From the IMG/VR virus record IMGVR_UViG_3300020222_000165, positions 1-25,520 of that record: 25,520 nt of DNA; one strand, 5' to 3'. Both the position numbers and the translations under genes were made by a program. The notes under the pieces are model-generated. The model had not been told where the DNA came from, searched no databases, and saw nothing but the letters and a program-made list of their open reading frames with translations. Positions 7,378 through 22,467 of this stretch are shown one piece after another; within the stretch, counting starts at the first letter, position 1; each line of letters begins with the position of its first letter. The DNA comes from a virus.

Positions 7378-7773
7378 TTATAGTTGTCTGAGGGTTGCCC
7401 TATGCTCGTCGAGGTGCTTACGATAATCTTCTACCGTTTCGAGTCTGGCCCCGCAAACACCACAACCAAACTGGTAGTGCGGCGACTTCTCGAAGTACTC
7501 AATCAACTTATCGTAAGAGTTGAGCCACTCGTGGACGACTTTCCCTTCGACGTACTCTTCGTACCACTCTTTAGTCAGCAGTATGCAAGACAGGGGTTTT
7601 CCTGCCCCCGGCTCACCAATAGGAATTGCGTCCCAGGGAGTGAATTGAATGAACAAGCGTGAACCAGGTGTCGTCATACGCGGCCCAATCTCCAAACGTG
7701 AGGTTTGACCCTCCGTTACGACTAGAATGGGCACACTCAAGATAATAGTATCGTCCGTCATCTTTCTAGGCAT
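7378..7773 (-). CDS. Small protein with a C-terminal C2H2 zinc finger
   Basis: 131 residues. The C-terminal part (about residues 102-126) spells a classical finger: FGCGVC, twelve residues, then HLDEH, giving C-x2-C-x12-H-x3-H. The N-terminal two thirds look beta-rich with an acidic helical stretch (EWYEEYVEGKVVHEWL). A purine run AAGGAGAAGGAG precedes ATG at 7773; a second in-frame ATG four codons on has better spacing, so the true start may be at 7761. It lies in the capsid-to-adaptor block, co-directional with virion genes, so it could be a virion protein using zinc for stability or a late regulatory factor. The finger is seen directly; function is unknown. Confidence 0.6.
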   Translation of the reverse strand: MPRKMTDDTIILSVPILVVTEGQTSRLEIGPRMTTPGSRLFIQFTPWDAIPIGEPGAGKPLSCILLTKEWYEEYVEGKVVHEWLNSYDKLIEYFEKSPHYQFGCGVCGARLETVEDYRKHLDEHRATLRQL

Positions 7774-8390: not shown

Positions 8391-8459
8391 TTACGTAGTC
8401 GTCGAGAAGCCGTAAATCCAGGGCATCGTCTGTGCGTTCTTAACGCGCCAACCATACTC
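8391..8459 (-). CDS. Major capsid protein, exon 2 (C-terminal 22 residues)
   Basis: This 69-base segment reads EYGWRVKNAQTMPWIYGF then STTT and a TAA stop. It is not a free gene: no start or ribosome site precedes it. It matches the C-terminal pattern of SU10/DUF5309 capsid proteins (GEYTLE..N..AH..I.GL), which the main capsid frame lacks. Joined after Gly357 of exon 1 it restores ILG-EYGW and gives a 379-residue protein. It has the same genomic frame as exon 1, since the intron is 624 bases, a multiple of three. The junction is set by group I intron rules (last intron base G) and agrees with the protein pattern. No RNA evidence is available here. Confidence 0.8.
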   Translation of the reverse strand, partial: EYGWRVKNAQTMPWIYGFSTTT

Positions 8460-9083
8460 CGATTCGTCCTCAGCCTTTCTATTCGGTTGAGGTCAGACTA
8501 TCACTTCGTTCCGTCATCGGAACGTCATCTCGTTTAGTCGTTGCAAGTGCTTTGGCAGTTTCGTAGACGTGCTTTAATGCGGACAAACGCTGTCTATAAT
8601 CTTCGAGTTTGTCCAAGACCGAATTAGACAGGCCCTCACGTCTAGAGTTGTGTTGATGTCTGTATGCTTCGATGATTCTGCGGTGAAAAAGTCTATACTC
8701 GATAGCCAAGTCTGCCTGGTCTCTCTTGTAACGTAAGAATGGATGTATCCTCTTGAGACATTCCATTGCCTTGTCCGTATACAATCGCCAGACGTAACCT
8801 CGTTTGCTCTTATCGTAATGAACTTTTCCTCCCCAAAATCCCGTTAGAAAATCCACAACTCTTCCATCTTTCATGAACACCTCGATACGCAAACTGTAAG
8901 TGGGACTCCAACCCTCTCTACGACAGGGTTGTTTTTCGATAGCGATACTTCCATCACCATCAATCACACCAGCAGTATATGCATAGTAAGCGTAATCTCT
9001 GTATTTCATGCTGCCTCCGCTTCTTCAGGGTGGGCGATTTCAGCCTTTCCCTGTATTAGAGATGAAAGGGCAAGTTTTAGTTT
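8460..9083 (-). ncRNA. Group I self-splicing intron inside the major capsid gene
   Basis: The 624-base intron starts after GGGT (base 9084) and ends with G at 8460. Pairings seen: P1, GGGTAA (9082-9087) with TTGCCC (9068-9073), placing the expected U-G pair at the 5' splice site; P10, ACTT (9072-9075) with exon 2 GAGT; P3, TCATCTC (9059-9065) with GAGATGA (8525-8531); P4, CAGGG (9049-9053) with CCCTG (9026-9030); P5, GGC with GCC inside P4; P7, ACGACTA (8535-8541) with TAGTCT (8495-8500), leaving one bulged C as in the guanosine-binding site; P8, CGTTCC (8519-8524) with GGAACG (8507-8512); P9, CTCAACC (8485-8491) with GGCTGAG (8469-8475), one mismatch. Helix order is canonical. The homing endonuclease gene enters at P6 and its 3' end also encodes the P7-P3-P8-P9 core. 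Confidence 0.88.
8479..9009 (-). CDS. LAGLIDADG homing endonuclease, intron-encoded
   Basis: 176 residues. Residues 11-26 contain AYTAGVIDGDGSIAI, the LAGLIDADG helix with its catalytic Asp. One motif only, so the enzyme should act as a homodimer. FLTGFWGGKVHYD, a basic middle and KAMECLKRIHPFLRYKRDQ are typical of the fold. Its job would be to cut intronless capsid alleles at the exon junction so the intron is copied in. ATG at 9009 overlaps the TGA that ends the unspliced capsid frame (ATGA), with GGAGG five bases upstream inside that frame, so it is translated from unspliced RNA. The last codons overlap the catalytic intron core, and the stop (8479) falls in P9, 19 bases before the intron end. 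The Ser/Thr-rich C-terminus probably reflects RNA constraint. Confidence 0.9.
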   Translation of the reverse strand: MKYRDYAYYAYTAGVIDGDGSIAIEKQPCRREGWSPTYSLRIEVFMKDGRVVDFLTGFWGGKVHYDKSKRGYVWRLYTDKAMECLKRIHPFLRYKRDQADLAIEYRLFHRRIIEAYRHQHNSRREGLSNSVLDKLEDYRQRLSALKHVYETAKALATTKRDDVPMTERSDSLTSTE

Positions 9084-10154
9084 ACCCAATATACGACGAG
9101 CGATGTGGTCTTTCCCCGGCAGAGTAGCATCCATCTCGGACAAAACACGAGAACCGAGAACAACGCTATCAATGTACTGAGGATTGACAAAGTACAGTTC
9201 ACCGGGTTTAACCAGGTGGTCGAGCAAGAAGTCAACCGTACCAAAGTCGGTCTCGATAGTATCAATCCTGGCTCCACCCACGCGCTCCGCACGACCGGTC
9301 TGAATTAGCCCACGATACCAGCCCGTCATCTTCCGCTTTACCCAGGAGTTGCCAACCATGAGAGACGGCACTTCCTCCTGTCCGTAAGCATTGAAGATGG
9401 CTTCCAACTCGTCAATGATGTCAGATTCCTCCAGAGCGGCACCAGCTTTATTAGTACCACCACCGAGGAACTGAGACATACCACCAGACACACGAGGCAA
9501 GTTGTTAGTCGCAGTCTCACCGCGCTTCAGATACCACAGACCACGCTCCATCTTCATATACAGCTCACGAAGACGTTTATCCATCCGATAGTCTAGCTTA
9601 GCGAGACCAGTAATACCGTACTCGTTCATTTCAACTTCGGAGCCGAAGATTTCGACATCCTCGCTAAAAATCTGAGTAACGTTATACAGTTGGCTAGTAA
9701 CAACCTGACGAGCAACACCAGGGCTGGAACCTTCGACGTTAGCATTACCGAGGATATACAGAGTCTTGGCAGTCACTGAACCGTTGTGGCCAGCAGCAGT
9801 CGTACCGCACATAGCCCCTCTAACGGTCAAGTCATTACCAGCGATAGCGATGACCCAAAAGATTTCCGAGTCCACCAGGAACAAGTCACCAGGACGGAAG
9901 AACCCACCATTACTAACGGTGTACTTCGTCCCACCAGCCGCGTAGTTCATCGAACTGGTGTCGGTAACGGGAATCAAGAAATCTTGCTGCCACTCATACT
10001 TGAAATTATCCACGGCACCACCAGACCCAAGACCAATCATCTGGAGAAAAGGGTGCTCATCGTTTGCTAACAAGTCGAGACGGTCGTCCAGCAGACGAAC
10101 AACCTGTTGCGTACCAGTGTAAGTAGATTCTGGCCCAATTCTTACAGTAGCCAT
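9006..10154 (-). CDS. Major capsid protein, exon 1 plus intron read-through (SU10/DUF5309 type)
   Basis: This HK97-fold capsid subunit builds the icosahedral head. The unspliced frame has 382 codons; true exon 1 is 9084-10154 (357 residues), and the last 25 codons are intron. SU10/DUF5309 features: an N-terminal HPFLQMIGLG, then FKYEWQQDFL; a beta domain around residues 75-135; QLYNVTQIFSEDVEIFGSE (155-173); the long helix RELYMKMERGLWYLKRGE (196-213); and a C-terminal YFVNPQYIDSVVLGSRVL. The read-through tail does not look like the family's C-terminus, while exon 2 does. No strong ribosome site is visible before ATG at 10154, unusual for a highly expressed protein. The scaffold gene ends 17 bases upstream. 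Confidence 0.92.
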   Translation of the reverse strand: MATVRIGPESTYTGTQQVVRLLDDRLDLLANDEHPFLQMIGLGSGGAVDNFKYEWQQDFLIPVTDTSSMNYAAGGTKYTVSNGGFFRPGDLFLVDSEIFWVIAIAGNDLTVRGAMCGTTAAGHNGSVTAKTLYILGNANVEGSSPGVARQVVTSQLYNVTQIFSEDVEIFGSEVEMNEYGITGLAKLDYRMDKRLRELYMKMERGLWYLKRGETATNNLPRVSGGMSQFLGGGTNKAGAALEESDIIDELEAIFNAYGQEEVPSLMVGNSWVKRKMTGWYRGLIQTGRAERVGGARIDTIETDFGTVDFLLDHLVKPGELYFVNPQYIDSVVLGSRVLSEMDATLPGKDHIARRILGKLKLALSSLIQGKAEIAHPEEAEAA

Positions 10155-10968: not shown

Positions 10969-13900
10969 CTATCGTTTAAGCCGCCATCGTGCCTGCTGAG
11001 TAACACGAGGGCCAGCACCCGATACTCTCGGAATGTCTACTCGTGGTGGACGAGGAGTTTTAAACGTACTCGTCCCCATCTGTAGCCATAACATCTTGAT
11101 ATAACTCAACCACTCATCGAAACTCATCTCAGTCCCAGAGGCTTCCCAAATAGTCTTGAGATGAGTACGAGTCGCAGCTGAGAGTTGTTTACGACCCGAC
11201 CAATACTCGAACAATTCAGCCATTGCAAGAGGCCCAGCCGACGCCACAAATGCCTTCCAGGATATTCCAGAAGCAGGCGTCCCCCTTACCATTCGACTAC
11301 CAGCACCGCCGCCACCACCGGCGGCTGCGCCTTTAGCTTGAACACTGTCACGAGGCACCCAATCCGGGTCGTAGTATTTCCTGAAGATTGGATGCGTTGC
11401 TTTGAACTCGTTTTGAGCATTGAACAACCCCAGCAACTGTGGATACTGTTCCAAGAACGCCCTACGCTGACCCGTCGGAAGCGAGTAGTAAATCTCCCGG
11501 AGATGCTCTAACTCCGGTGTGACTAGAGCATAATACTGTTCCGCCTCTGCCCGAGCCTGGGCGTACTCCCGTGGGTCTCCGATGTCGTATTTTGGAAGTT
11601 CCTCTATCAACAACGCCAACGCATCTCGATAAGCATCTTCTGTCACGTAGCTTCGGGACACCTTGTCCAGTATCGCAGAAACCAAAGGATGGTCTTTCGC
11701 CCACGCTCCGAGTTGTCCAGGTGGAACGTTAGCATACCAGAATTGCCAGAACCGGCGCGAAGGGGAGTTAGGCGGGAACCACTTCTCCACGAGCGGGTGA
11801 TTCCAAAGGTCAGTCTCTCCCTCAAATGCACGTTGAACCATCGCGTAAGCCGTCTGATACTCCAGTTCCTCCCCAGGGGTGGGAAGTTCTATCCTATCAA
11901 TCGGCTCCCCTGCACGCAACTTCTCCCGAGCATCTTTGAGAGCCTCTTGCGCTGAAGCTCGAACATCTGCCTCAGTCATCTCCCTAACTTCTCGTGCTGT
12001 GGGCGCAAACTCGTATCGCTCCTTCTCTTCTGGCTCAGGTGGTATCCACTCCATCCCGCCCATCCTCTCGTCCCACTCTTCTTGAGTGAACCGTCTGGCT
12101 GCCCACAACATCTCCGATTCGGACATCGGTGTTGGGCCTGTACCGAAGGGTTCGCGTCGCCCCTCGGGAACAAGACTGTGCCAATCCTCTGGCAACAGGT
12201 TGAACCACAACGCCAGCTCGTAGTCAGAGATTTCGTGGTAATTACCAGCCAGAAATATCTCGGAAAAGCGAGGGCCAAGAATCTCCTTGGCTCGTATGCG
12301 AGCCAAACTTTTTTCAGGAAGGGTCGTCCAGAACCGCCAAAGTTCGCTCACTACCATCTCACGGTCAGTTCCCTTGATATACACGAATTCGGAAACTGCA
12401 AACTTTCCGATATTCTTAGCAATGTCCATTACCTCAAACATCTTTTCGTTGCCCCAATCCGGGTGAAGAACCCGGATGTTAGCGAGGAACAACTCCGACG
12501 TTGGGTCTAACTCGGTATTCAAGACACCATCCCGCCAGGCAATGTACTCATCAAGAGCCTTATCCAGCTCTGGATGAGCCTCCCTGTAATTTACGTTAGC
12601 GGGGAAATCCATCTCCAGGTAAGCAGCGTACAAATCCTGTACTTCGTAAGGAGTGTTTTCCTCCCACCAATTTGTGTAGTACAAATCCCAGGCTTGCGCA
12701 GCCTGGTTGTTGAGTTCCCGATAAACCGCATCAACGGGCAAGTCGTTGCGAACCAACATTTGCCGAGCCTCTAATTGAGTGAACAGACGTGGTTCCATCT
12801 CCTGACGAACTTCCATCGCTACCTCTAATACAGTCTCAGGAAGGTCTTCCAGCATCCTCTGCTTTCCATCAGGGTCGGCCTCGTACCATTTCTCCATCCA
12901 CTTACGCATGGCCTGGGCCTTCGGCCCATCGCGCCAATGAATGTATTGACGACGATTGTCAGCCAGAAACTCAAAGTAGTTGGTCAACTCATCGCCATAC
13001 TCCTGGTTTAACTCCGTTCGCCGATTCCGAAAGTCCATGATAGTTCGATAATGCTCAGGAGTTCCAGGTATAAACTGGCCTAAGTAATACTGACGTTCAT
13101 GCTCAAGCTGACCTCGCTTCTCGTAGTATTCATTGACACGATTGCTCAGCGCAATCCAACTATCCCAATCCTCCTCCGTCATCTTCCCCGATGCAACGTC
13201 CCAATAACGATAAGCTAACTGTCTAAACCTGTAATCGGGATACACAGCATAGAACTCTTGCAGCGCGTGACGGTCGCCAGCCTCGTATCTTTTGTAAGCC
13301 TCGTCGTATATCAAACCCATCCCCCGCAGCACCCGCTCCTCGGACGGATAAATCTTGATGGGAGCGTAGATTGCCCACCTAAGAAATGCAGGAACAGCGG
13401 ATTGCTCAGCCGCCAAACGGGTGGCAGTCTCCCAAGCAGGGCCACTCCGAGTCGCAAAAGCCTCAGTTGCCTCCTCACTGGTAATTTCGCCTGTTCCAGC
13501 AAGACCCGCCAACCGTTGGTAACGCCAATACTCCTCGTTAGGGCTTACTCTTCCGAGACCTAAGCCAAGTACGTCACTGACGAATCCCTCAGGGTTCCAC
13601 CCTTCGGGCGGAACTTCAACTCCCATTCGGTTAAGGAGAGGCTCAAGCATAATACTTCCGCCCCGAATACCCCGCGTACCAGACCAATACCCCGTATGCA
13701 CAACCATCGAAGCTTCGGGGATGTAACGTTGTATCTTTTCTGCGAGCCAGGGTTGGTTTTCCTCGGCCCAAGGCAATATGCGGTTAGCTAAGATTGCCAA
13801 CGAGTCAAATACAATAGGCGACGTAGACCACATGTTCTGGAAGAATATGTACTCACGTCCACGGGCAATGTCTTGGTAAGTATCCGGGAGCCAGATGTCT

Positions 13901-16900
13901 CCCCATACAGGCATAGTTTCCAGCGGCAATAGAATTCGTTGGGGCTGGATGTAATGTTCCGTCTCTGCCGTCCACTCCTTACCAGTAAAGAAGTTGGTCA
14001 TTGCCCCAATCCCAAGAGGCATCCACCCTCGCAACCTCTCTGGCATCAGAGGGTCTTTCTCGGCCTGGTCTTCCATCAACCGCCGATTGGTATTGAGCCA
14101 GGACAAGTAGTGCGGGTTGTCCACAAAGTACTTCATCCAGTTCCACGTACTGTGGACAGGCCAAAACTCGAAAGGTATAACTACGCTAATTAAAGCATCC
14201 AATATCGTCTTGTCACCATAGTCGAGAATTGCATAGTCTCTATCCCACAAAGCCTGTCTCATGGTAGCATACTGCGTCAATTCCATTTCCTTACGAACGG
14301 TCGTATTGAGCCAGTCCATCACTCTCTCCCACAAAGCAGGAGGGACAGTCATCGCAGGGTCTAAATCCCGAAACGAACGAGCATCAAGCTTGTCAATCGC
14401 AGACCTGAGTGGGTTGGCATAACGCCGGTAGATGTCGTAAATAGAAGGCAGTGTATCTGGCAACCGGTCAATCTCCCAAGAAGAGTTTATCCAATCCGTC
14501 CACTTCTGGGCGTCGAGTTTATACCAAACGTACTGTTTGGCTAAATTCACGGCGTGTTGGAGCTCGTCGTAATCGTCAGCTATGGCTCCCGGATGTGCGG
14601 TTATCCAGACCTTCATCTTTTTGATAACCTCCACTACTTCGACCGGATTGTAGCTGGGAGTATCCCGCACTGCTCCTACTTCAGAAATGGTATTTACGAG
14701 TTGTTGACGAGCACGAGGCAATAACGTTTTGTATATGTCCCAGAACGTATCCCGCGCAAGTGTTGGGACTATTTCGTCCAAATTACTGAGATACTCCGCC
14801 ATTTGAACTGTTGAGTCTTTCCCAGCCCCTTGTAGTAAGTCCCAATCACTAACCTGCGGGTAATACTTTGTCATGAATGGATATGTGGTAGTCAGATACT
14901 CCCACAATTCCGCAGGAGTGCCGCCCCGTTTTATTAAGTCGAATACCGCATCGTCCATTGGGTCGAGCATATCGTAAACGTCCGTCCCATAGGTATCTGC
15001 AATTCGACGCAACAGGTCGAAATCATGAGCCCTATCACCCGCACCCAACATCTCACTCACCAGGGGGTTATCCGCAAACCGATGAGTAACCGGCTCCATT
15101 GCCCTGAAAGTTTCCGCAGAACGATGAGCCCACCCTACAGCCTTCAAGTCGTTGATGTGTCTGGCCTTCGCAACAGATGTAATTCCCTCTTGAATCATAT
15201 CCCGCAACTCGCTGATAACGGCAGCCCGAGCTGCTTCACTCTTAACTTCACCCAACTTTGTAATCTGGGCCAGAATGTCGGGATGCTGCGTTATTGCCGC
15301 CCGCTCATCCTTAGTTAGCTGTTGCAAGTACCATCCAATAGACTTAACCTTACCGAACTCGACAGCACCTTCGACAATAGTACGATGAATTCGACTTGCT
15401 TCGGCCAGTACCTCGCCAAAATTCCACTTCCCAACGAGCATGGCCTGAACTGCCTCAGCGATAGCCGGGTCGTACTGTGACAACTGAATTTTTAACTCGT
15501 GTGGTAACCCCAGCGGCATATCGTTCCAGTTTTGCGACCACCGTGTTACGTAGGATTGGTAGATAGCCAAAGCCGACATGTTGGCCTCACTCTCACCAGC
15601 CGCTTTGAGGAACGGCCCTGGAGAAATGAGCTCCTTCAGTCTCGTCCAAATACTGGCGACTTTGGTCGCGGCCTCTGGAGTAGTGTCTATACCTAACTCA
15701 GCAGGAGTAGCCGAGAACCCAAATGCCATTCTTTGAGGCACTGCCCCTACCTGGTCAGCAAAGAAATTCTCGACCCCTTGACGACCAAATCCGATGTGCT
15801 CCCCAATACTCGATTCCGCTGGAAGCCGTTTCCACCCACATCGAGCAACGATATTCCGCAGGTTGTCCCAAATATTGCCAATCCAGTACATTGGGTTCCA
15901 GCCCAGGAACAGAGGCGATAAAATCTGCTTTTGTTTACCGGAAACGGTTAGAGCATACCGAGTAAGGTCGTCAGCAGCCTTGCCCCAATGAGTGTTTCGT
16001 ATCAGGGCCCTCTCTTTCAACCTGGCAATCTCGGTTATATTACTAACAACCGTATGTAACATGTCCTTGCCATCTGTCGCCTTGTCAACGCCCTTGAGAA
16101 TGTCTCCTGCATCCATTCCCTCGATAACACGCTTGACTAGCTGCCCATCCACACTATCGTAAGCCGGGTCGTCAACGAACTTCTTCAACAGCCCTGGAAT
16201 CTCACCAGGGTCAACTACCTTACCAGCAAGATACACCGTCAGACGGTCATGAACAACCTCTCCAACCTTCCTTACTCTCGCCGCAGGTGTCTTGTACCAA
16301 GGAGTAACATCACTCACAGCACGATGGAACTCTAACTTCTCTTTTAAAGGAACGGCTGCCCGCTCTGCAACCAACCTCGCAGAACGATTTTGGAGAGGGT
16401 TCCAACCCATCCACTTCGTTACGTTCAGAGGGTCGAGAACAACACCATAAGCCAACTCCTTTACGAGGTTTTGCTCTTGCTTGAGAATCGTCTCAACATC
16501 CTCCTTAGTCTGAGCCTCCTCCATTAACCGGGTGTGAGTCTTCTTGAAAAACTCGAAGTCCTCCGGCGATGTTTTCGTTCCTATACCCCACGAAAAGGAT
16601 ATTCTATCTACCTCACGAGCCATCAACTCTGCTTTAGCCCGTAACTCTGGGTCTTCCCCATACTTCGCGTCGAGCCAGGCATTGATGCTCTCAAACTCTG
16701 GCTGAACGAGCGTCGGAAGCTGTTCTCCCTTTGTTCCATAAATCCACATCAAGTCGAGTATGTCAGGAAGCTCTTCAGCAGTCTCGGTCGTTTCCAGATA
16801 CTCCATCAGGGCTCTCGTTATCTCTTCCTGAGTAGGCTCAACAGCCGCATTTCGCTTAATGTTACCAATCAGTCGAGCAAGCATATACTGTGGAGTATTC

Positions 16901-17409
16901 CAGGCAGGGCCAAGTACCTTCAACAATCCGAGGTTAGCTACTCCCATCAACGCATGTTTGATAGGCTCCGTAACTTTTCGCCAACCCATCTTTTCGGCCC
17001 ATTGCGTTGCCGCAGTCTCGTGAGAATCTATATATGCAGCCTCCCACTCGTCTGCCCACTTACCAAGTCCGTAAGTCATCTCCTCGAAAGCCCACAACTG
17101 CCAATCAGTAACTTTCTGAGCAGCAAACAAGTCGTATTCTTCTGGAGGTTGATAAGTAGGTAGCAGCCCAGGATACTGCTCAGGTAGAAGAATCGGCCCC
17201 GCTGGTGCTCTTCGTGCCTCAACGTCGCGTTGATATTCCCACCATTTGAGGGGTATCCCCCGTTGCTGGGCTTCAATCGCTGCCCTTTCGCGGCTAAGGT
17301 AATCTTCCCAACCCTTACGAATTAAAGGGAGATAAGGACGCGGTTCTTCTTTCGGCTCCCTCTGCTCCCGCTGACGAAGCCGGTAGAGATAAACGTTTTC
17401 AGAAACCAT
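10969..17409 (-). CDS. Giant 2146-residue virion protein (probable internal/ejection or polyvalent protein)
   Basis: By far the largest gene, encoded between the portal group and the scaffold. It is mostly charged amphipathic helix, with unusually many Trp, Tyr and Glu residues. Two regions recall large internal or polyvalent phage proteins: WNPMYWIGNIWDNLRNIVAR (about residue 505) and VIPFEFWPVHSTWNWMKYF followed by DNPHYLSWLNTNRR (about residues 1070-1110), a pattern seen near membrane-interacting parts of such proteins. A Gly-rich hinge (GAAAGGGGGAG, near 2027) precedes a basic C-terminal domain. No signal peptide and no clear polymerase, nuclease or lysozyme motif was found. The likely role is to sit inside the head and be ejected with DNA, replacing a tape measure in a short-tailed particle; this is inference. 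ATG at 17409 follows the upstream stop by two bases, with no clear ribosome site. Confidence 0.6.
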   Translation of the reverse strand: MVSENVYLYRLRQREQREPKEEPRPYLPLIRKGWEDYLSRERAAIEAQQRGIPLKWWEYQRDVEARRAPAGPILLPEQYPGLLPTYQPPEEYDLFAAQKVTDWQLWAFEEMTYGLGKWADEWEAAYIDSHETAATQWAEKMGWRKVTEPIKHALMGVANLGLLKVLGPAWNTPQYMLARLIGNIKRNAAVEPTQEEITRALMEYLETTETAEELPDILDLMWIYGTKGEQLPTLVQPEFESINAWLDAKYGEDPELRAKAELMAREVDRISFSWGIGTKTSPEDFEFFKKTHTRLMEEAQTKEDVETILKQEQNLVKELAYGVVLDPLNVTKWMGWNPLQNRSARLVAERAAVPLKEKLEFHRAVSDVTPWYKTPAARVRKVGEVVHDRLTVYLAGKVVDPGEIPGLLKKFVDDPAYDSVDGQLVKRVIEGMDAGDILKGVDKATDGKDMLHTVVSNITEIARLKERALIRNTHWGKAADDLTRYALTVSGKQKQILSPLFLGWNPMYWIGNIWDNLRNIVARCGWKRLPAESSIGEHIGFGRQGVENFFADQVGAVPQRMAFGFSATPAELGIDTTPEAATKVASIWTRLKELISPGPFLKAAGESEANMSALAIYQSYVTRWSQNWNDMPLGLPHELKIQLSQYDPAIAEAVQAMLVGKWNFGEVLAEASRIHRTIVEGAVEFGKVKSIGWYLQQLTKDERAAITQHPDILAQITKLGEVKSEAARAAVISELRDMIQEGITSVAKARHINDLKAVGWAHRSAETFRAMEPVTHRFADNPLVSEMLGAGDRAHDFDLLRRIADTYGTDVYDMLDPMDDAVFDLIKRGGTPAELWEYLTTTYPFMTKYYPQVSDWDLLQGAGKDSTVQMAEYLSNLDEIVPTLARDTFWDIYKTLLPRARQQLVNTISEVGAVRDTPSYNPVEVVEVIKKMKVWITAHPGAIADDYDELQHAVNLAKQYVWYKLDAQKWTDWINSSWEIDRLPDTLPSIYDIYRRYANPLRSAIDKLDARSFRDLDPAMTVPPALWERVMDWLNTTVRKEMELTQYATMRQALWDRDYAILDYGDKTILDALISVVIPFEFWPVHSTWNWMKYFVDNPHYLSWLNTNRRLMEDQAEKDPLMPERLRGWMPLGIGAMTNFFTGKEWTAETEHYIQPQRILLPLETMPVWGDIWLPDTYQDIARGREYIFFQNMWSTSPIVFDSLAILANRILPWAEENQPWLAEKIQRYIPEASMVVHTGYWSGTRGIRGGSIMLEPLLNRMGVEVPPEGWNPEGFVSDVLGLGLGRVSPNEEYWRYQRLAGLAGTGEITSEEATEAFATRSGPAWETATRLAAEQSAVPAFLRWAIYAPIKIYPSEERVLRGMGLIYDEAYKRYEAGDRHALQEFYAVYPDYRFRQLAYRYWDVASGKMTEEDWDSWIALSNRVNEYYEKRGQLEHERQYYLGQFIPGTPEHYRTIMDFRNRRTELNQEYGDELTNYFEFLADNRRQYIHWRDGPKAQAMRKWMEKWYEADPDGKQRMLEDLPETVLEVAMEVRQEMEPRLFTQLEARQMLVRNDLPVDAVYRELNNQAAQAWDLYYTNWWEENTPYEVQDLYAAYLEMDFPANVNYREAHPELDKALDEYIAWRDGVLNTELDPTSELFLANIRVLHPDWGNEKMFEVMDIAKNIGKFAVSEFVYIKGTDREMVVSELWRFWTTLPEKSLARIRAKEILGPRFSEIFLAGNYHEISDYELALWFNLLPEDWHSLVPEGRREPFGTGPTPMSESEMLWAARRFTQEEWDERMGGMEWIPPEPEEKERYEFAPTAREVREMTEADVRASAQEALKDAREKLRAGEPIDRIELPTPGEELEYQTAYAMVQRAFEGETDLWNHPLVEKWFPPNSPSRRFWQFWYANVPPGQLGAWAKDHPLVSAILDKVSRSYVTEDAYRDALALLIEELPKYDIGDPREYAQARAEAEQYYALVTPELEHLREIYYSLPTGQRRAFLEQYPQLLGLFNAQNEFKATHPIFRKYYDPDWVPRDSVQAKGAAAGGGGGAGSRMVRGTPASGISWKAFVASAGPLAMAELFEYWSGRKQLSAATRTHLKTIWEASGTEMSFDEWLSYIKMLWLQMGTSTFKTPRPPRVDIPRVSGAGPRVTQQARWRLKR

Positions 17410-22320: not shown

Positions 22321-22392
22321 TATCGGGAAGCGGAATCGAACCGCTGTCCTGGTGGTTATGAGCCACCCGAGCTGCCACTGCTCCACCCCGAA
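22321..22392 (-). tRNA. tRNA-Met (anticodon CAT), with some initiator-like features
   Basis: A full cloverleaf can be drawn by eye. Acceptor: TTCGGGG with TCCCGAT, with positions 1 and 72 both T and so unpaired; D arm GAGC/GCTC; anticodon stem GGTGG/CCACC with loop CTCATAA (anticodon bases at 22358-22360); T arm AGCGG/CCGCT with loop TTCGATT. A mismatch at 1:72 is a hallmark of initiator tRNA, but the third initiator mark, three G-C pairs next to the anticodon loop, is only partly met. CCA is not encoded. An elongator Met or a lysidine-modified Ile tRNA remains possible. Confidence 0.85.
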
Positions 22393-22394
22393 AG

Positions 22395-22467
22395 CAGGGA
22401 GCCCAGGGTTCAAACCTGGAACCTACGGTTTTGGAGACCGTTGCTCTTTCATTTGAGCTAGCCCCCT
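22395..22467 (-). tRNA. tRNA-Trp (anticodon CCA)
   Basis: Acceptor AGGGGGC/GCTCCCT (one G-T pair), discriminator G; D arm GCTC/GAGC; anticodon stem ACGGT/ACCGT with loop CTCCAAA (anticodon 22432-22434); T arm CCAGG/CCTGG with loop TTTGAAC. The D loop (AAATGAAA) lacks the usual GG pair. CCA is not encoded. The tRNA-Met begins two bases downstream, so the two are one transcript. The giant protein and other virion proteins are rich in Trp, which could make a phage Trp tRNA useful. Confidence 0.88.

Follow-up and report, generated by a model that had tools for sequence, protein, structure and literature searches.

A group I intron with an I-CreI-like endonuclease gene in the major capsid gene of an SU10-type phage, very probably a member of a capsid-biased intron lineage

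In an SU10-type tailed phage, represented by environmental virome sequence alone, the major capsid gene is interrupted by a 624-nt element that we identify with high confidence as a mobile group I intron carrying an I-CreI-like endonuclease and belonging to a capsid-biased intron lineage. The window analyzed here is the entire 25,520-base IMG/VR record IMGVR_UViG_3300020222_000165, and the intron boundaries, the empty sites in relatives, the covarying core, the spliced reading frame and the predicted endonuclease fold were all read from sequence. Capsid-gene introns with endonucleases are already known from the phages LittleE and Tuc2009; the new part is the lineage. The features of the locus, in the direction of transcription, are as follows.

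9084..10154, minus strand: exon 1 of the major capsid gene, 357 codons (SU10_MCP match at 9e-46; empty-site alignment)
9016..9087, minus strand: ribozyme 5' half, with P1 and its guide sequence, P3, P4, P5 and the P6 5' strand with the endonuclease ribosome-binding region
8460..9083, minus strand: group I intron, 624 nt (empty sites, splice-site rules, pair counts, covariance model R1)
9006..9083, minus strand: continuation of the exon 1 frame into the intron for 25 codons, the final TGA overlapping the endonuclease ATG (ATGA)
8479..9009, minus strand: LAGLIDADG homing endonuclease, I-CreI-like, 176 aa, starting at P6, with its 3' end running through P7, P3', P8 and P7' into L9
8462..8546, minus strand: ribozyme 3' half, with R/P7, P3', P8, S/P7' and P9 (covariance model R1, 42 bits, E 7e-9)
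8391..8459, minus strand: exon 2, encoding EYGWRVKNAQTMPWIYGFSTTT and the stop codon, contiguous with exon 1 in the relatives L001 and L002 and lengthening the Pfam match

The capsid gene lies on the minus strand and matches both the Pfam profile SU10_MCP (9e-46) and the PHROG major head protein family phrog_1328. Exon 1 ends with ...AUUGGGU at 9084 and exon 2 begins with GAGUAUGG at 8459. The splice joins GGU to GAG, giving the junction ATATTGGGT/GAGTATGG in the spliced sequence, the joined frame ...RRILG followed by EYGWRVKNAQTMPWIYGFSTTT, and the junction-spanning peptide RILGEYGWR. The original prediction had located the capsid C-terminus in exon 2, and a comparison of the two protein versions favors splicing: the spliced protein scores 172 bits against the SU10_MCP profile versus 157 for the unspliced one, and the end of the match moves from profile position 274 to 288 of 292, so that the spliced protein matches the profile over its full length (3-288). 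Intron-free relatives encode this same spliced sequence, RILGEYGWRVKNAQTMPWI.GFSTTT. The predicted structure of the capsid protein was poor (mean pLDDT 37).

The intron boundaries are fixed by two relatives, L001 and L002, phages about 90% identical to the window (L002 ~93%) that a scan of viral contigs with the protein of exon 1 had brought up. In both, the sequences flanking the window's intron are contiguous to the base and in frame, without target duplication, which establishes precise intron-less alleles and bears out the predicted joining of 9084 to 8459. L002 lacks the window's intron but carries a homologous 611-nt intron after codon 32 of the same gene (L002 5390-6000), with a LAGLIDADG ORF inside and the exon boundary ...AACGAU/GAAUAUCCG...; this second site is empty in the window and in L001. 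Both insertion sites share T/GARTAT at the junction. With related introns at two different positions in one gene, the L002 case offers a direct look at intron movement to new sites. The L002 sequence comes from sample 3300020109, which is named in a paper on Lake Tanganyika (PMC8245535). A search with the terminase returned four loci: two are the contigs of L001 and L002, and the other two end short of the capsid gene. When the endonuclease and the P4-P5 sequence were used to look for close relatives, L002 alone came up, and plasmids yielded none. Local misassembly as the source of the intron is unlikely because of the second case in L002 and the wider lineage. Two other kinds of insertion were ruled out: an intein, as the frame of the insert stops after 25 codons, and an IStron or transposon, as neither a transposase gene nor a target-site duplication was seen.

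The intron folds into a group I core with P3, P4-P6 and P7-P9 in canonical order, including the P3/P7 pseudoknot. P1 with its U-G pair, P10, the 7-bp P3, P4, P5, P7, P8 and P9, together with an endonuclease gene entering at P6, were each recovered on the minus strand exactly where they had been proposed. In the window, P1 is formed by GGGU(AA)/(UU)GCCC, whose U.G pair lies at the splice site, P3 by UCAUCUC/GAGAUGA, P4 by CAGGG/CCCUG, P5 by GGC/GCC, P7 by GACUA/UAGUC, P8 by CGUUCC/GGAACG and P9 by CCUCA.CC/GG.UGAGG, and P6 includes GGCAG/CUGCC. The window and L002 introns both have the U.G pair of P1 at the end of exon 1, a terminal G (8460 in the window) and a 4-bp P10, with different sequences in each: P1 is GGGU/GCCC in the window and CGAU/GUCG in L002, and P10 is GAGU/ACUU and GAAU/AUUC, respectively. 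After deletion of the ORF, unconstrained folding returned P1, P3, P4, P5, P6 and P8 for the window core and P1, P4, P5, P6, P7 and P9 for the L002 core. Across the two introns, 95.5% of the 34 proposed pairs are paired, versus 30-45% when the alignment is slid, and six compensatory changes fall in P3 (2), P4 (2), P7 (1) and P9 (1), with P8 and P9 partly mispaired in this two-sequence alignment. A bare descriptor of P3, P4, P5 and P7 was matched by 9/4000 shuffles of the window intron and 21/4000 of the L002 intron (0.2-0.5%), so that the core exceeds chance expectation.

We looked for further introns of this type with a pattern (R-P3'...S) derived from the window and L002 introns. It matched 16 viral contigs, L002 and 15 others, with group I-like 3' halves. 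The terminal partner base of P7, which the pattern leaves free, covaries in 16/16 distinct sequences, and a P8 stem occurs at the same register in 14/16. The pattern matched only once in 84,980 bacterial and archaeal genomes, and not at a real site; that match (L265) is due to chance, lying inside an unrelated chromosomal ORF without an R1 match. A 5'-core motif shared by several lineage members, TCTCTAATTGACTTGGA, was found in more than 120 stretches among the matches listed. The window intron itself has a different 5' core (TCTCTAATACAGGGAAA) and is therefore regarded as a side branch of the lineage.

A covariance model places the window intron in this lineage. This model, R1, was built on 47 introns that the 5' motif had retrieved, with no use of the window. 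R1 gave one match in the window, at 8462-8546 (42 bits, E 7e-9), above chance, and matched L002 (45.5 bits) and related loci, with no match in L001, T4, the chance bacterial site, LittleE, Tuc2009 or 42 control loci (0 in 377 kb). The Rfam model Intron_gpI (RF00028), which the original prediction had named as a check, did not match the window intron at the gathering threshold or in a permissive search. The T4 td intron was missed in the same kind of search as well, and the Rfam result is therefore uninformative as counter-evidence. One lineage member (L026) matches the whole RF00028 model at 21.8 bits, below the cut-off. R1 also indicated second lineage introns close to the first in three loci (L020:2634-2713, L031:3283-3359 and L024:3302-3395), so that single genes may hold at least two introns.

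Three known systems help to place the intron. In mycobacteriophage LittleE (JF937101), splicing of a capsid-gene intron was shown by RT-PCR and protein sequencing (PMC3706429). Like the window, LittleE has a major capsid gene interrupted by a group I-type intron, an I-CreI-related LAGLIDADG endonuclease and an empty site in relatives, but its endonuclease lies on the opposite strand, its capsid is HK97-type, and it gives a weak Rfam Intron_gpI match (30.7 bits) and none to R1. Lactococcus phage Tuc2009 (NC_002703) likewise has a group I intron with an endonuclease in its major capsid gene (mp4); there, however, the endonuclease is of the HNH type, R1 does not match, and the Rfam matches are sub-threshold. 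The T4 td intron with I-TevI (NC_000866) has identical R (AACGACTA) and S (ATAGTCTG) motifs, is also missed by Rfam, and its intron ORF similarly reaches into the core with its 3' end (PMC2988022). It differs by a longer R-S segment, a GIY-YIG enzyme, thymidylate synthase as host gene and the lack of an R1 match.

The host genes of the lineage point towards capsids. Based on PHROGs, the pattern matches fall in major head protein genes in 10/14 non-redundant loci, covering four PHROG families (L017, L018, L020, L023, L025-L027 and L029-L031; L030 is SU10-type, L023 crAss-like), and in a tape measure gene in one; L021, L024 and L028 were left unassigned. The host gene of L027 was assigned via exons near-identical to those of L025, and a suspected resemblance of L028 to P22 coat was not borne out. 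In L030, a far SU10-type relative whose splice sites were read by eye, exon 1 ends near RRAVGGE and the downstream end reads DTMEVRARDRAHGLIHNLAVA. By these readings, the introns of the window and L030 lie at nearly the same conserved place in two distant SU10-type capsid genes. As in LittleE and unlike the P6 ORF of the window, the L030 intron (118-700) seems to carry a LAGLIDADG-like frame on the opposite strand, located past P9 (also read by eye). Among the matches listed for the 5' motif, 24/48 non-redundant exon-2 ORFs belong to major head families, i.e. PHROGs 1357 (17), 9953 (4) and 267 (3).

For comparison, a td-type control pattern matched more than 120 contigs among the matches listed (L145-L264). 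DNA polymerases are commonest among their 112 non-redundant exon-2 ORFs (again among the matches listed), and major head families among the best 25 PHROG families sum to at most 20/112 (≤18%). Fisher tests gave about 8e-5 both for 24/48 versus 20/112 and for 10/14 versus 20/112, p-values that are only indicative, as PHROG counts may overlap, ORF picking took some endonucleases and the phages are related. The lineage, which is widespread among environmental phages, occupies major capsid genes at a higher rate than td-type introns do. Td-type introns themselves occur fairly often in capsid genes, in up to 20/112 cases, 9 of them SU10-type.

One possible explanation of the bias, which we consider rather doubtful but take seriously, is that a few successful insertions were inherited by related phages, or that the choice of motif favored capsids, without any capsid preference of the introns. 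PHROG 1357 capsids dominate the counts, the motif samples one sub-lineage, the counts come from among the matches listed and may overlap between PHROGs, and the control introns also reach capsid genes at the level given above. However, exon 1 ends at at least nine places in PHROG 1357 genes, several unrelated capsid families are involved, redundancy had been removed at 90% identity, and the contrast with the control holds at 8e-5 in both comparisons. We consider it probable that the introns form an undescribed, phage-confined group I lineage that prefers major capsid genes, entering them at numerous positions and across several unrelated families (SU10-type, PHROGs 1357, 9953 and 267, crAss-like and annotated P22 coat), and that is abundant in viromes and nearly absent from annotated phages. 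In a blastn search of 50,697 annotated phage records with lineage sequences, only MW202674 matched at E 0.1 or better with a 3' core; two Desulfovibrio phage records gave weaker 5'-core matches. In the literature searched, with partial coverage, no description of a capsid-biased intron lineage was found.

The major capsid protein is usually among the most highly expressed products of a phage and a common marker for metagenomic viruses. Capsid introns break up gene calls, conceal exons and can skew surveys that rely on this marker. The P22-coat gene of MW202674.1 (L268; 2123-3638, R1 match at 66.7 bits) is an example: its annotation lists two P22 coat genes separated by a hypothetical gene. Given the abundance of the lineage in viromes and its near absence from annotated phages, many metagenomic capsid genes are probably annotated as fragments. 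A capsid-biased ribozyme lineage also raises the testable question of whether late, high-copy structural transcripts serve as an intron refuge or offer a homing advantage, and the further question of how splicing stays efficient in capsid transcripts.

The intron-encoded protein of the window has a single LAGLIDADG motif (AGVIDGDG) with D17 and D19 conserved, and scores 23.0 bits against LAGLIDADG_1, 0.1 bit under the Pfam cut-off of 23.1. Its fold, predicted from two sequences (pLDDT 77), follows the alpha-beta-beta-alpha-beta-beta-alpha order of the I-CreI type and retrieved I-CreI with Foldseek (PDB 1bp7 and related entries; E 3.5e-7, TM about 0.60-0.68) at an identity of ~24%. I-CreI itself originates from a chloroplast rRNA intron. 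The endonucleases of the window and L002 introns are 38% identical. In contrast to I-CreI, the window enzyme has a low-confidence C-terminal tail encoded by the ribozyme core: the final residues, RSDSLTSTE, derive from P7' to P9, where low confidence is expected because the ribozyme sequence dictates the protein. Endonuclease genes overlapping the intron core are known (PMC11878797, PMC3984707). Relatives of the enzyme in isolate phages of Caulobacter, Gordonia, Mycobacterium and Streptomyces are apparently free-standing or located within other genes.

The state of the window's endonuclease ORF also bears on whether the element might be a degenerate group I intron, with a recognizable core that has lost splicing, in a defective genome or a misassembly. 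The window is a single contig and the bare helix descriptor has shuffle odds of just about 1 in 450, but no core helix is disrupted, the endonuclease frame is still open and its motif residues are conserved, and exon 2 is in frame and near-identical to that of L002, which makes degeneration very improbable. As an active group I intron, the element would work by analogy with known members, from which catalysis, DNA cleavage and homing are inferred. The capsid pre-mRNA would fold into the ribozyme, guanosine bound in P7 would attack after GGGU (9084), and P1 and P10 would then direct the freed exon to attack after the terminal G (8460), with ligation of GGU to GAG restoring the last 22 capsid residues. 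In co-infections, the endonuclease encoded at P6 could cut intron-less capsid alleles, and the intron-bearing copy would be used for repair.

The arrangement of the two reading frames might allow translational control. The endonuclease start lies inside or adjoining P6, and the exon 1 frame runs on into the intron until it terminates at this start, with an overlap of AUGA in the window and UAAGGAUG in L002. Because of this arrangement, ribosomes on unspliced RNA could start the endonuclease, and the fold required for splicing would conceal the start. In T4, efficient splicing needs the I-TevI start to be sequestered and the core to be kept free of ribosomes (PMC2988022). Coupled translation of the endonuclease with exon 1 is put forward as a hypothesis only; it draws on two introns that are homologous, and a stretch of ~25 open codons is not unusual by chance. 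That the endonuclease gene is instead a free-standing insertion next to a functional, never-spliced capsid protein of 382 aa (exon 1 plus the intron-encoded tail KLKLALSSLIQGK) is scarcely credible: this ORF is complete, near full length (382 versus 379 aa spliced) and ends exactly at the endonuclease start, but such an insertion does not account for a covarying group I core, an exact insertion following the U.G and terminal-G rules, P10 or a conserved exon 2 within the Pfam match, and the homologous intron after codon 32 in L002 would destroy an unspliced capsid. All this evidence upholds the original prediction of a capsid gene split by a group I intron with a LAGLIDADG endonuclease, through the empty sites in L001 and L002, the covariation and the spliced frame.

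Elsewhere in the window, a 2146-aa ORF without Pfam match (10969-17409, minus strand) lies between the portal and capsid genes, and two neighboring tRNA genes (22321-22467, minus strand; Rfam) follow past the terminase gene. Downstream of the capsid gene, a small protein (7378-7773, minus strand) shows a C-terminal C2H2 zinc-finger-like motif at a sub-cut-off Pfam E of 0.006.
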